DNA from: a virus
DNA: 25,578 nt
Strand: one strand, 5' to 3'
IMG/VR virus record: IMGVR_UViG_3300000230_000008
Coordinates: 24,482-50,059 of that record
The position numbers were made by a program, and so were the translations under genes. The notes beneath the pieces are model-generated. The model worked only from the letters and a program-made list of their open reading frames with translations. It had not been told where the DNA came from and ran no database searches. Positions 4,249 through 24,970 of this stretch are shown piece after piece (the stretch's first letter is position 1; each line of letters starts with the position of its first letter).

Positions 4249-4276
4249 AGATAGGGGGTTGAAAAATCCCCTATTT
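4249..4276 (+). other. Hairpin behind major capsid gene
   Basis: ATAGGGG (4251-4257) pairs with CCCCTAT (4268-4274). One further G-T pair inside and a G-T plus an A-T pair outside give about ten base pairs around an eight-base A-rich loop. It begins 13 bases after the capsid stop. No U-run follows on either strand, so it does not look like a complete intrinsic terminator. An mRNA 3'-end stabiliser or weak attenuator is more likely (inference). Confidence 0.55.
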
Positions 4277-5019: not shown

Positions 5020-5053
5020 AAAACCCTGTTCATGCAGGGTTTTCTTTCTTTTT
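5020..5053 (+). terminator. Intrinsic terminator after head genes
   Basis: AAAACCCTG (5020-5028) pairs perfectly with CAGGGTTTT (5035-5043) around the loop TTCATG, followed by the T-rich run CTTTCTTTTT. A complete 9-bp rho-independent terminator 26 bases behind the 4710 gene. A new promoter begins in its T-run. Confidence 0.9.
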
Positions 5054-5081
5054 GGAATTTTAATCAAAAACATGTTATAAT
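5052..5081 (+). promoter_or_regulatory. Promoter directly after terminator
   Basis: TTGGAA (5052-5057), 18 bases, TATAAT (5076-5081), with TGT at 5073-5075 giving an extended -10. It ends 25 bases before the connector ATG at 5107 and restarts transcription after the terminator at 5020-5053. Confidence 0.7.
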
Positions 5082-20523: not shown

Positions 20524-20549
20524 TTATATGTAAAGAAATGAGGTGTGCT

Positions 20550-20999
20550 ATGAAAAAAATATATTCCCCGATTCAAATTTATAATTTTCTAAAAAAAAAT
20601 CACATTGATAATGCTTCTTTGACTTTTACCCTGCCTCCTCTATCTTTTTGCACTGAGAATATCTCTTGGAAAGAATTGTTGATGAATCAAACTGAATTAC
20701 CAAGCTTGGAAGTTTTGATAAATTTATGCATGGTGGCTAATAGGCTTCAAGCTTTCCGAGATACTGTTTTTAGGGCAGAGATAACTATTTCAAGTGCTTG
20801 GCGGTCAGAAGCTTATAATAAAAAAATAGGTGGTGAGCCAATGAGCAAGCATATTTTAGGTCAAGCTATTGATTTTAATGTAAAAGACTTCCCGCCAAGC
20901 AAAGTTCAATTCTTGCTTGATAAGCACTCAGGAGGTCTTGGAGCCTATAAGAGCTTCACTCACATGGATACAGCTACGAAAAGAAAATGGGTTAGCTAA
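20550..20999 (+). CDS. Peptidase M15 family endolysin
   Basis: A 149-residue zinc peptidase of the M15 (Peptidase_M15_3-like) type, expected to cleave peptidoglycan cross-links for host lysis. The core is intact: SSAWRSEAYN (81-90), KKIGGEPMSKHILGQAIDF with His101 and Asp108 as first zinc ligands, and the end motif GLGAYKSFTHMD with His138 and Asp140. There is no signal peptide or separate wall-binding domain, so a holin would be needed for export. The ATG at 20550 is preferred over 20538 because GAGGTG is correctly spaced for it. Its own promoter lies just upstream. The stop overlaps the next small gene (TAATG). Confidence 0.88.
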   Translation: MKKIYSPIQIYNFLKKNHIDNASLTFTLPPLSFCTENISWKELLMNQTELPSLEVLINLCMVANRLQAFRDTVFRAEITISSAWRSEAYNKKIGGEPMSKHILGQAIDFNVKDFPPSKVQFLLDKHSGGLGAYKSFTHMDTATKRKWVS

Positions 21000-21165: not shown

Positions 21166-21318
21166 ATGACTAAGGACGAAATAGAATCTTTACCAAAATT
21201 CACTATAAGGCACTTGAAAGATTTGGATCAACTTAAAATAGGACGAGATTTGGTTCTAAAGAAAATGATTATTGAGGAAATAAACGCAAAAAAAAGACTG
21301 CTTGAATGCAATCTTTGA
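21166..21318 (+). CDS. Small charged 50-residue protein
   Basis: The ATG follows AGAGGAG with usual spacing. The product is helical and charged (MTKDEIESLPKF, then RHLKDLDQLKIGRDL), with a single Cys near the end. Not recognised. Its last codons overlap the terminator of the candidate leftward small RNA, so the two genes are antisense to one another over about 30 bases. Confidence 0.5.
   Translation: MTKDEIESLPKFTIRHLKDLDQLKIGRDLVLKKMIIEEINAKKRLLECNL
21288..21316 (-). terminator. Terminator of leftward small RNA
   Basis: On the minus strand AAAGATTGC pairs with GCAGTCTTT around ATTCAA, and eight T's run from 21295 to 21288. The one non-Watson-Crick pair is G-U in the leftward RNA but would be C-A in a rightward RNA, so the hairpin favours the leftward strand. 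Confidence 0.8.
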
Positions 21319-21358
21319 ATGAATGGGAAATAGTTAAGGTTAGTCAATAGAAATTTAT
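21289..21358 (-). ncRNA. Candidate phage small RNA, about 70 nt
   Basis: A complete transcription unit can be read: a consensus promoter at 21393-21365 and an intrinsic terminator at 21316-21288. The start is expected near 21358, giving a transcript of about 70 nt. The first ~40 nt are AU-rich with a CCUUAACU and UUUCCC stretch and no obvious structure. It contains no translatable frame of useful size with a ribosome site. It is antisense to the end of the 21166 gene. A regulatory antisense or trans-acting RNA is the likely role; the target is unknown. Confidence 0.65.
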
Positions 21359-21364
21359 ATCATC

Positions 21365-21393
21365 ATTATAGGGGTTGTTGCGAGTTGTGTCAA
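21365..21393 (-). promoter_or_regulatory. Perfect sigma70 promoter, leftward
   Basis: On the minus strand TTGACA (21393-21388), exactly 17 bases, TATAAT (21370-21365): full consensus in both boxes with optimal spacing, the best promoter seen by eye in the window. The TTGACA overlaps the TGA stop of the leftward gene at 21390-21674. Confidence 0.85.
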
Positions 21394-21674
21394 GAATTAG
21401 CATTTCTTCCGTATATATGGAGGTTCTGTAGCTTATGCTTAGCGTTATAAATGCCTTCATTCAGCTTCATTTTCTGCCTAAACTGGTCGGAAATTAGCTC
21501 GAAATAAGCAAGCGACTTTGCCATTTCCTTTTTCCTGCCAACACTAACAGCGCTACATACTTGCTCACATGCAAACAATAGCTCTTTTTCTAATTCATCT
21601 TTACTTTTGCCAGATGTTCTAAAAGTCTTTAATATTTCGGATAATTCCAAAGTTGCACCATCCTTTTTGACCAT
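21390..21674 (-). CDS. Leftward small helical protein (moron-like)
   Basis: The only protein gene on the minus strand. The frame fills a 416-base gap that holds no rightward gene. From the ATG at 21674 the product has 94 residues, helical and basic (LSEILKTFRTSGKSKDELEKELLFACEQVCSAV, then KSLAYFELISDQFRQKMKLNEGIY). The frame is open further upstream to 21827, but that part overlaps the 21735 gene. The ATG at 21674 overlaps the -10 box TATAAT (21678-21673), so transcripts would begin after it. A TTG at 21650 with AAAAAGGA upstream is a better start and would give 86 residues. Not recognised; an accessory gene with its own promoter is inferred. Confidence 0.55.
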   Translation of the reverse strand: MVKKDGATLELSEILKTFRTSGKSKDELEKELLFACEQVCSAVSVGRKKEMAKSLAYFELISDQFRQKMKLNEGIYNAKHKLQNLHIYGRNANS

Positions 21675-21681
21675 TATAGCA
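21673..21681 (-). promoter_or_regulatory. Extended -10 promoter for leftward gene
   Basis: TGCTATAAT on the minus strand, identical to the rightward box at 21708-21716 and together with it a 9-bp inverted repeat. No good -35 box. It would start transcription near 21666. Confidence 0.6.
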
Positions 21682-21688
21682 TATTTTT

Positions 21689-21716
21689 TTGAATTTCGTG
21701 GAAAGTTTGCTATAAT
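21689..21716 (+). promoter_or_regulatory. Rightward promoter for fibre genes
   Basis: TTGAAT (21689-21694), 16 bases, TATAAT (21711-21716) with TGC at 21708-21710 giving an extended -10. It ends 18 bases before the 21735 ATG. Back-to-back with the leftward promoter at 21673-21681. Confidence 0.65.
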
Positions 21717-21734: not shown

Positions 21735-22097
21735 ATGAACTTTAAACCTACTTTGACTAAAAGAGAGTATTACCGAGGTGATACACCGCTCCCAAGGACT
21801 GTACACTTTAAAGATACTGACGGCCAATATATAGACATTACGGGCTATAAAATTTGGTATACAGTTAGAGAAAAGCCAGCTACATCAATTATTAAGAATG
21901 ATGCCGATGCAATAATTCATAAAGAAATTGATGGCGATGCTACTGGCATAGTCACATTTTCGCTGTCTAGTGACGATACCGATATACCTGTTGGGACTTA
22001 TTATTATGATTTCCAGTATAAAAAGCCTGACGGAGTTATAAAGACTTTAGGAATTGGAGAATTTGTCATTCTTGCAGAAGCAACAAGGAGTCGATAA
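21735..22097 (+). CDS. BppU N-terminal-like fibre or baseplate adaptor protein
   Basis: A 120-residue beta-sandwich-like protein. It resembles the N-terminal domain of lactococcal-type upper baseplate proteins: an initial KREYYRGDTPLPRTVHFKDTDGQYIDITGYKIWYTV, a middle KEIDGDATGIVTFSLSSDDTDIPVGTYYYDFQY, and a final GVIKTLGIGEFVILAE. Proteins of this type stand before long tail fibres and may link them to the tail tip. GGAGGG at 21723-21728 is the ribosome site, and the stop overlaps the fibre start (TAATG), so the two are made together. Confidence 0.7.
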   Translation: MNFKPTLTKREYYRGDTPLPRTVHFKDTDGQYIDITGYKIWYTVREKPATSIIKNDADAIIHKEIDGDATGIVTFSLSSDDTDIPVGTYYYDFQYKKPDGVIKTLGIGEFVILAEATRSR

Positions 22098-24970
22098 TGG
22101 ATGATATTTTTGTAACATTACAGGAAGGTTCGGATGATATTTTCTTAACAATAGAGGACTCTTACATCTTGCCTACTGCCAGCGCCACTATCAAGGGTGG
22201 CATCAAGGTTGGGTCGGGCTTAAGTATCACTGGTGGGGTTTTGAGCGCTACCGCTCTCTCTCAAGTCCAATCTGATTTTGCCCAAACTGACAGCAATGAG
22301 CCCGATTTTATAAAAAACAAGCCGAGCATACCTTCCAATACAAGTGATTTAATCAACGACAGCGGTTTTATTACTATAGACAACTTGGAGCCTTATGTCA
22401 CGACCTCAGGGCTGACTATAGCCTTGAGTACTAAATCAGACACAACTCACAATCACTCTTTAGCCAATTTGACTGAAAAAAGTTACAATAGTTTGACGGA
22501 TAAGCCAACTATCCCTGACGAGTTAAAAGATTTAACAGACGATGCAACTCACAGGACAGTGACAGACATCGAAAAAACAACTTGGAATAATAAATTAAGC
22601 TCGTTTACGGAAGCAGACCCAGTATTTACTGCGCACCCAGCACATAATGTTGTTAATACTGGAGATGGTACGCAGTACCTCTCGGATGATGGCACTTATA
22701 AAGTTGTTGAAGGTGGAGTAACATCTGTAAATGGTGAAACTGGGGATGTTGTTATAACAATTCCAACGGCTACAAGCGATTTAACAAATGATAGTGGCTT
22801 TATAACGTCCTCAAGCATCCCTGACATAAGCGGAAAAGCTAACCTTGTGGGCGGAAACACCTTTACAGGTAGCCAAAACTTTGATGATAATACACTTTTT
22901 GTTGATAGCGTTAATAATAGAGTAGGGGTAAGAAACTCTACACCTTTAGAAGTTTTTGAAGTTAAGGCGGATGAGGACGAAGATATCAACTATATAGCTA
23001 TTATCGGAGATGAGGATAAGACCAGAGGCTTCCAGATTGACTCTAAGGGCGAGTATAAATGGGCAAACTACATTTATGCGGGTGAGGATGGAGATACTCA
23101 ATATTTCGCTAGTGGCAACTCTGGCAGAGATATTTTAACAATGCAATCGGGCGGAAGAATTGGGCTTAATGTCCCTACGCTTCTCGCTAATATAGAAATT
23201 TTAAGAATAGTTCAAACAGGCTCTAACACTTATGCAACTGTTACTTGTGAAGCACCTCATAAGCTTTCAAACAATACAGAAATAATAATAGAAGGGGCAA
23301 CTAATTTAAAATTTAACGGCTCTTTTATCATAACAAATGTAACTACAATGACTTTTCGCTTAAATGGATTAGAAGTTGGGGCGGTATCAGAAGAGCCGAC
23401 AGATGCAGTAGTGACTCAAGAAACTACTATACCTGCAAGTTTAGCTATATATCCTCAATATTTTGATGGGATATATTCTTTTGATGAAGCTTTAAATACT
23501 GGAGCAGGGGCAGGATACACAAATATAACAGCTAATATGCGGACTAGCTTTGGCACGGCTGATACTATATTACCTATAACAAGTGGCTCATACCTCTACA
23601 TTGGTAAAAATTACCCTTGGAGGGCAACCAACTTTAATATAGAAACAGCGAGCATTGGCGCTTCAACTATGGTAGTCGAATACAGCAACAAGGAAGGCGG
23701 ATGGACTATTTTAACAACATCTGCAACATCAGGTAATGGATTAGTAGACGGCACGTCGAAGTTAAAATCTGATGGAAATATCGCTTGGAATTTAAGAACA
23801 TTTAAAAACTTATGGAGCAAGGTTTCAATTCAAACAAACCCAGCACCACATTATACGCAAGAATTATTCTGGATTAGAATTTCACTAACTGGAACAGTAA
23901 CAACTGCACCGACTGCTAAAGCTATAGGGAATCATGGAATAGACAGATTTGCCATATATACTCAAGCAGGAGACGTAAGCCCAGTTATGTCAGTTGACTC
24001 CATGGGCAGAGTAGGTTTCTTGCCTGCTGAACTAGAAGGCAAGTACACTATGGGTACACTTGCAGGGCTCCAGAGCTCAAAGTTTGAAGTAGTAGCTGAA
24101 GACGGTTTACGTTCTGACTTTTTATATTATGTTGCCAATGATGCTTCAGGTCAACATCCAGCAATTATATTTGCACGTTCGGGTGGTAAAATAGCTACTA
24201 AAACCCCTGTTGCAAGTGGGATGGATTTAGGCGGTATTTATGCAGAAGCCTATGACGGTTCTCAATTTAGAGATGTAGGCAAAATCCTGTTTGAAAGCGC
24301 TAAACTAGCAACAAGTGGGGATGCTTCAGGCAGAATTTGTTTCTTTACTCGAAATGCAACCACAACAAGTTCTGAAAGAATGAGAATTACTGAAGCTGGC
24401 AACGTCGGCATTGGAACTACGAGTCCAACTTCTAAACTTCAAGTCAAGGGTGCAGGAACAACAACAGGGGTTTCTTTGCTTGCCCAAGATAGTTCAGGAG
24501 CAACAACATTCCAAGTTCAAGATAACGGCACTATTACAGCTCCTGCTTTGAATAGATGCGGGTTTAGTGCTTTTACGTCAAATACTGCTATACCTGCAGT
24601 AACTTGGACTACTGCAGTATTTTCGACCGAACAAGATGATACACACAACGCTTTTAATGGTTCTGTTTTTACAGTTCCAACAGGGAAAGGTGGCTTGTAT
24701 CAAATAAATGCTGTATATGCTTTTCTTTCAGTGTCCGATGGCTCTATGTACATTGTAGCCTTGGATTTAAACAATACAGGGTCAGCAACTCATCTGATAG
24801 GTAGAGGTATTTCGGGGGGCACGAACGTATGTGGAGCAGGTGGTTCTCTAGTTTTAAATCTATCAGCAGGGGCTACTATCAGGCTAAAGGTTTATTGTTC
24901 CAATGCCACAGTTGGCATTGGCTCAATACCTGGCTACTGTTCATTCTCAGCAACAAAGTTAATAGTATAA
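22097..24970 (+). CDS. Long tail fibre with C1q-like C-terminal domain
   Basis: A 957-residue fibre, second in the window. Residues 1-110 contain an N-terminal DDIFVTLQEGSDDIFLTIEDSY segment followed by the ASATIKGGIKVGSGLSITGG phage-fibre motif. From about 75 to 260 there are repeated SDLIND/NDSGFIT and LTDKPTIP units and a VTSVNGETGDVVIT motif, typical of fibre shafts. About 400-640 are beta-rich and may be carbohydrate binding. NVGIGTTSPTSKLQV at 768 is a common fibre collar motif. Residues 817-957 (FSAFTSNTAIPAVTW...FTVPTGKGGLYQINAVYAF...LSAGATIRLKVY) fit a C1q/TNF-like jelly roll, likely the trimeric receptor-binding head. No autocleaving chaperone is present. Confidence 0.82.
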   Translation: MDDIFVTLQEGSDDIFLTIEDSYILPTASATIKGGIKVGSGLSITGGVLSATALSQVQSDFAQTDSNEPDFIKNKPSIPSNTSDLINDSGFITIDNLEPYVTTSGLTIALSTKSDTTHNHSLANLTEKSYNSLTDKPTIPDELKDLTDDATHRTVTDIEKTTWNNKLSSFTEADPVFTAHPAHNVVNTGDGTQYLSDDGTYKVVEGGVTSVNGETGDVVITIPTATSDLTNDSGFITSSSIPDISGKANLVGGNTFTGSQNFDDNTLFVDSVNNRVGVRNSTPLEVFEVKADEDEDINYIAIIGDEDKTRGFQIDSKGEYKWANYIYAGEDGDTQYFASGNSGRDILTMQSGGRIGLNVPTLLANIEILRIVQTGSNTYATVTCEAPHKLSNNTEIIIEGATNLKFNGSFIITNVTTMTFRLNGLEVGAVSEEPTDAVVTQETTIPASLAIYPQYFDGIYSFDEALNTGAGAGYTNITANMRTSFGTADTILPITSGSYLYIGKNYPWRATNFNIETASIGASTMVVEYSNKEGGWTILTTSATSGNGLVDGTSKLKSDGNIAWNLRTFKNLWSKVSIQTNPAPHYTQELFWIRISLTGTVTTAPTAKAIGNHGIDRFAIYTQAGDVSPVMSVDSMGRVGFLPAELEGKYTMGTLAGLQSSKFEVVAEDGLRSDFLYYVANDASGQHPAIIFARSGGKIATKTPVASGMDLGGIYAEAYDGSQFRDVGKILFESAKLATSGDASGRICFFTRNATTTSSERMRITEAGNVGIGTTSPTSKLQVKGAGTTTGVSLLAQDSSGATTFQVQDNGTITAPALNRCGFSAFTSNTAIPAVTWTTAVFSTEQDDTHNAFNGSVFTVPTGKGGLYQINAVYAFLSVSDGSMYIVALDLNNTGSATHLIGRGISGGTNVCGAGGSLVLNLSAGATIRLKVYCSNATVGIGSIPGYCSFSATKLIV

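Follow-up and report, generated by a model that had tools for sequence, protein, structure and literature searches.

The OOP RNA of lambdoid phages is transcribed leftward from its own promoter, ends at a hairpin, and is complementary to the last part of a gene read rightward (PMC9438474); in lambda, it covers 52 nt across the end of cII (PMC5869508). Phage BTP1 also has an OOP RNA, OOP-BTP1, and as a prophage it encodes the antisense RNA STnc6030 (PMC7067206). Many antisense RNAs have been described in the structural region of phage PAK_P3, and one, PAK_P4as15, at the endolysin gene of phage PAK_P4 (PMC4933390, PMC12197685). Among bacterial genes, DapZ has a promoter located shortly ahead of the stop codon of dapB (PMC9438474). 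Here, we discuss a stretch of 25,578 nucleotides (hereafter, the window), which is the right half (24482–50059) of a 50,059-base virus record. A sequence-only reading had proposed within it a leftward, non-coding unit of about 70 nt with a perfect promoter and its own terminator, and had held that few such RNAs are described for phage late regions. The latter statement is overstated in view of the RNAs of PAK_P3 and PAK_P4 and of BTP1 STnc6030, all of which, like the predicted RNA, run antisense to phage transcripts from the structural or lysis region.

Early genes run leftward in the record, and the late genes of the window (portal, capsid, tape measure, tail, and endolysin) run rightward. 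An M15-peptidase endolysin gene (20538–20999, plus strand) belongs to the same late segment as the antisense site and lies upstream of it. A late ORF of 50 aa (21166–21318, plus strand), preceded by a good Shine-Dalgarno sequence, contributes its last ~29 nt to the complementarity with the predicted RNA. A single leftward ORF, ending at 21390, sits between the rightward ORFs 21166–21318 and 21735–22097. Tyrosine integrase and serine recombinase genes were looked for across the 50-kb record, and neither was found. In the terminase gene region, L009 (8929–9600) encodes a protein resembling an HNH homing endonuclease, flanked by terminase-small-subunit-like and terminase-nuclease-like genes and perhaps intron-borne.

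On the minus strand, we found a sigma-70-type promoter of full consensus, TTGACA-N17-TATAAT, at 21393–21365, exactly where it had been claimed: the −35 element TTGACA occupies 21393–21388 and, after 17 bases, the −10 element TATAAT occupies 21370–21365. Its −35 element contains the TGA stop (21392–21390) of the leftward ORF, and the overlap proposed between promoter and stop codon is thus real. This is the only 12/12 match in the 50-kb record, and hexamer counts give an expectation of 0.033 such matches per window and 0.093 per record. In 100 third-order Markov genomes of 50 kb each, seven perfect promoters arose (0.07 per 50 kb), none of which (0/7) had a terminator downstream; by simulation, the pairing of promoter and terminator is far below chance. 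The bulk number of promoter-like and terminator-like sites equaled the shuffle mean without any excess, so that the two elements are informative just in their quality and their pairing, and because the window was picked by a scan, any single p-value is weakened. A weaker second element, an extended −10 (TGATATAAA), lies at 21362–21354, with a possible start ~11 nt downstream.

Extended −10 elements (TGNTATAAT) with poor −35 boxes occur shortly upstream of several gene starts (window 5073, 20515, 21708, and 21681; L008 3980), which suggests that this is a common promoter style of the phage. At 5021–5073, a promoter of this type comes directly after a terminator, and ATG 5107 is probably where the gene there truly starts. 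Since the other gene-start promoters of the phage combine an extended −10 with a poor −35, a perfect −35 element may bring no advantage with the polymerase of its host.

The intrinsic terminator (21316–21288, minus strand) consists of a 9-bp stem with one G-U pair and a 6-nt loop (AAAGATTGC, loop ATTCAA, GCAGTCTTT; 21316–21293), followed by a U-run that extends to 21288. Read on the minus strand, the one weak pair of the stem is T.G, whereas the plus strand has C.A at that position, and a T-run follows the stem on the minus strand only; the terminator is therefore leftward, and its earlier description was verified in every part. By RNA folding, the leftward stem, which has only three G-C pairs, reached −10 kcal/mol (z −2.5 to −3.6), and a terminator-like site of this quality was present in 0.23% of random 140-nt stretches. 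It is the fifth strongest hairpin of the record by energy, and two of the four stronger ones (5021–5042 and 4254–4271) lie in gaps following genes, which suggests that the phage uses such terminators. The claim that the RNA has a terminator of its own holds insofar as the hairpin would end it, but the hairpin is first of all the terminator of the leftward gene, as it lies ~75 nt after the stop of a gene that has its own promoter; the terminator thus appears to be common to the gene and the predicted RNA. The same stem, including the G-U pair, occurs with the loop ATGTGT as the second stem of a conserved stretch, mostly a double hairpin, in a family of IMG/VR contigs (L011–L013, L015, L017–L019, L022, and L023). 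This match is convergent or due to chance, given that the flanks are unrelated to the window.

Transcription between these elements would yield an RNA of 68–74 nt (21361–21288, minus strand), with a 5' end at ~21361–21358, placed 4–7 nt past the −10 element, and a 3' end at ~21290–21288. Its 5' part is predicted to be unstructured and is pyrimidine-rich, with one G in 42 nt, a G content as low as that of 0.5% of the 42-nt stretches of the phage; the terminator hairpin follows. We found no plausible coding frame in the predicted RNA and an antisense overlap of ~29 nt with ORF 21166–21318, and the sequence-only reading was correct on both points as well as on the length. Within ~0.7 kb downstream there is no leftward ORF of at least 40 aa, and the predicted RNA is accordingly not an mRNA leader; Rfam contained no family matching it, and on these two grounds an attenuator, leader, or riboswitch was ruled out. 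Judged from the DNA, a small RNA is probably made from this locus, whereas the proposition that it regulates something falls somewhat short of probable. Separately, TGGGAAATAGTT has just two occurrences in the phage when up to one mismatch is allowed. One, at L008 3180 (minus strand), closes a DUF1351 gene (DWEIV-stop); the other, at window 21324 (plus strand), faces the predicted RNA on the complementary strand, and there a frame of 14 codons reads MQSLNEWEIVKVSQ. This double occurrence is either chance or a gene-end remnant.

The leftward gene (21674–21390, minus strand) encodes 94 aa if read from ATG 21674. This ATG lies inside the gene's own −10 element, however, and a start at TTG 21650, with AAGGA upstream and a product of 86 aa, is therefore more likely. 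The −10 element belongs to an extended −10 promoter, TGCTATAAT (21681–21673, minus strand), and a divergent copy (21708–21716, plus strand) lies upstream of the Shine-Dalgarno sequence and ATG of the rightward gene at 21735. Together, the two copies form an inverted repeat (21673–21716), which is probably behind a weak and meaningless miRNA match in Rfam. The leftward protein had no match in Pfam, PHROGs, or NCBIfam and was predicted to be mostly helical, with a mean pLDDT of 68 in a single-sequence fold. The codon-usage score of the ORF was 6.6 bits, where the 95% point of the null lies at 9.5 and the 5% point of true genes at 4.6; the endolysin, a certain gene, had an equally low score per codon. 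As the leftward gene has its own promoter and terminator and is not co-directional with the late operon, the three together, antisense to that operon, have the look of a moron-like cassette. Promoter and leftward gene had been taken to form one odd module; their linkage stands, but the layout is a recognized one (a DapZ-type 3'-UTR sRNA and a moron cassette) rather than an odd one.

We searched for relatives of the locus at several levels. Searches with the leftward protein gave no homologue in IMG/VR, the phage collection, or GTDB genomes, and none was found for the small ORFs 20999 and 21166, the latter of which was also searched against phages. Searches of IMG/VR and the phage collection with the DNA, the promoter, the RNA body, and the stem pattern returned nothing homologous. 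The stem pattern gave 13 matches, which had an upstream promoter of at best 7–9 of 12 positions (where the sequence was long enough) and unrelated flanks; these were rejected as relatives and taken as chance or convergent terminators. Relatives of the endolysin and tail genes (L003–L007) were distant, with no 12/12 promoter in the stretch examined. The nearest relative is a sister phage from sample 3300000234 (fragments L002 and L010), which shares ~95% DNA identity in the head genes, and its contig L002 starts at the position corresponding to window 21774 and so narrowly misses the cassette. Over the tail segment (L002 1–900 versus window 21774–22641), the sister phage is 81% identical, and a long divergent stretch follows after 22641, as would be expected for a fast-changing host-recognition protein.

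The reading we favor, which we regard as close to an even prospect, is that the 3' end of the moron-like cassette, together with the stop-codon promoter, gives rise to an OOP-like cis-antisense RNA. A leftward cassette of promoter, small gene, and intrinsic terminator would be set against the rightward late operon, and the stop-codon promoter would produce an untranslated RNA of 68–74 nt with its 3' end at the shared terminator. This RNA would pair with the rightward late mRNA across 21288–21361, where the mRNA comprises the last part of gene 21166 and then untranslated sequence. Such pairing would promote decay of the late message, or its cleavage by RNase III, in the interval that separates the lysis genes from the tail gene at 21735. 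The anatomy of the elements, their improbability by chance, and their leftward polarity are observed here; transcription, RNA ends, pairing, and effect are what we infer. On the plus strand, the stretch between 21318 and 21735 contained no terminator hairpin reaching −6 kcal/mol, so the late mRNA probably carries the complement of the whole RNA. A perfect pairing of ~70 nt would be an RNase III substrate, as is stated for OOP paired with the cII-O message (Krinke and Wulff, as cited in PMC5869508), and this favors action in cis. Also in favor of this reading are the sole 12/12 promoter, the fifth-ranked terminator with its leftward T-run and G-U pair, the combination of the two that no simulated genome showed, the unstructured and nearly G-free 5' part, the lack of a leftward ORF downstream, and the resemblance in layout to OOP. 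Conversely, no homologue was found that would show conservation or covariation, the leftward gene alone suffices to explain the terminator, the coding overlap with 21166 is ~29 nt compared with 52 for OOP, and the other promoters of the phage are of the extended −10 type with a poor −35; these points argue against it.

It is possible, though unlikely, that the terminator just ends the leftward gene and that the promoter match is due to chance or lacks function, with no regulatory RNA made or only noise. The position of the terminator, ~75 nt past the stop of a gene with its own promoter, would be fully accounted for in this way, and the generic count of promoter-like sites at chance level, the apparent extended −10 style of the phage, and the selection that applies to a locus found by a scan all point in the same direction. 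Against this, the sole 12/12 promoter of the record lies right at the stop codon with a strong terminator within 75 bases, and only 0.07 perfect promoters are expected per 50 kb even before any requirement on position.

Less likely still, the RNA might act in trans as a 3'-UTR-derived sRNA, its C-rich, G-poor tail pairing with phage or host mRNA leaders; DapZ and MicX, which act in trans and have their own promoters in 3' regions, are precedents (PMC9438474). The target prediction called for in the sequence-only reading, run on 94 leaders, did return a site: AACTATTTCCCA in the predicted RNA is perfectly complementary (12 pairs) to positions −33 to −22 of gene L008:3147 (minus strand), just upstream of its Shine-Dalgarno sequence, and this is the longest match among the leaders. 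The candidate target is an early gene located between the DUF1351 gene and a YqaJ-like recombinase gene. However, the match is borderline, as its length was equaled in ~5% of shuffles, and its duplex energy, equaled or bettered by 29% of shuffles, is not significant. In addition, the site doubles as coding sequence for the C-terminus of the preceding protein (DWEIV-stop), which gives it a second reason for being there.

The act of transcription itself could instead be what matters, with leftward polymerases colliding or reading through and thereby damping the expression of late or lysis genes until a late stage of infection, and the RNA being inert. The convergent geometry, the modest terminator with its three G-C pairs, and the early antisense transcription of structural genes in PAK_P3 (PMC4933390) are in keeping with this mechanism, but a terminator 70 nt past the start would confine the interference to a short stretch, and we consider it improbable. 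A dual role, in which the RNA would cut the late mRNA in cis and shut off the recombination-cluster early gene in trans, thereby linking the early and late programs, seems to us more improbable again. Prophage-borne type I pairs such as txpA/RatA and bsrG/SR4 combine a convergent 3'-end overlap with a small ORF, and yonT/SR6 is a further type I system that is adduced alongside them. A type I toxin–antitoxin pair, in which the 50-aa ORF 21166 would encode the toxin and the RNA, overlapping its 3' end, would be the antitoxin, would share that arrangement but is very improbable and was rejected on hydropathy, since the product is charged and lacks a transmembrane segment (mean hydropathy −0.36; best 19-residue window 0.35), whereas the toxin of type I modules is, in what PMC6563280 states of them, usually small and hydrophobic.

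Returning to the OOP-like cis-antisense RNA, we regard the locus as a good candidate rather than a discovery, and as a plausible example of a layout known from lambda and from bacterial genes rather than as something strange. Its transcription would place a short OOP-like RNA in the lysis/tail region of an uncultivated phage that has no close relatives in reference collections, and would show the DapZ-type arrangement of a promoter at a stop codon in a phage accessory cassette. If the reading is true, a full promoter between the stop codon of a moron and its terminator could serve as a rule for recognizing phage sRNAs from sequence.

Like OOP of lambda and its relatives, the predicted RNA is short and leftward, has its own promoter and an intrinsic hairpin, and overlaps a rightward gene at its 3' end in antisense orientation. 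Unlike OOP, it is located in the late lysis/tail region and not beside the immunity region, without cII/O genes; its complementarity to coding sequence spans ~29 nt, compared with 52 for OOP, it also sits where a leftward protein gene ends, and it has no sequence similarity to OOP. Because of this location and the absence of an Rfam match, we do not file it as an OOP homologue, and the analogy is one of layout only. With DapZ (dapB), MicX, and MicL, it shares a promoter placed at the stop codon or shortly ahead of it (DapZ), or within the gene, and the use of that gene's terminator, but those RNAs are chromosomal whereas this one is phage-borne. It is shorter than the small antisense RNAs of PAK_P3 (average ~176 nt) and STnc6030 (786 nt), and the antisense RNAs of PAK_P3, PAK_P4, and BTP1 were found by RNA-seq, whereas the one described here is a sequence prediction. 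As in prophage moron and accessory loci, a gene with its own promoter and terminator lies antisense to the late operon; in contrast to prophage morons, no integrase was found in the record, and an additional promoter is present at the end of the cassette. The class of RNA is therefore already known, and the predicted instance is new: in this comparison, the layout of the locus is best described as a cross of an OOP RNA and a 3'-UTR sRNA with its own promoter.
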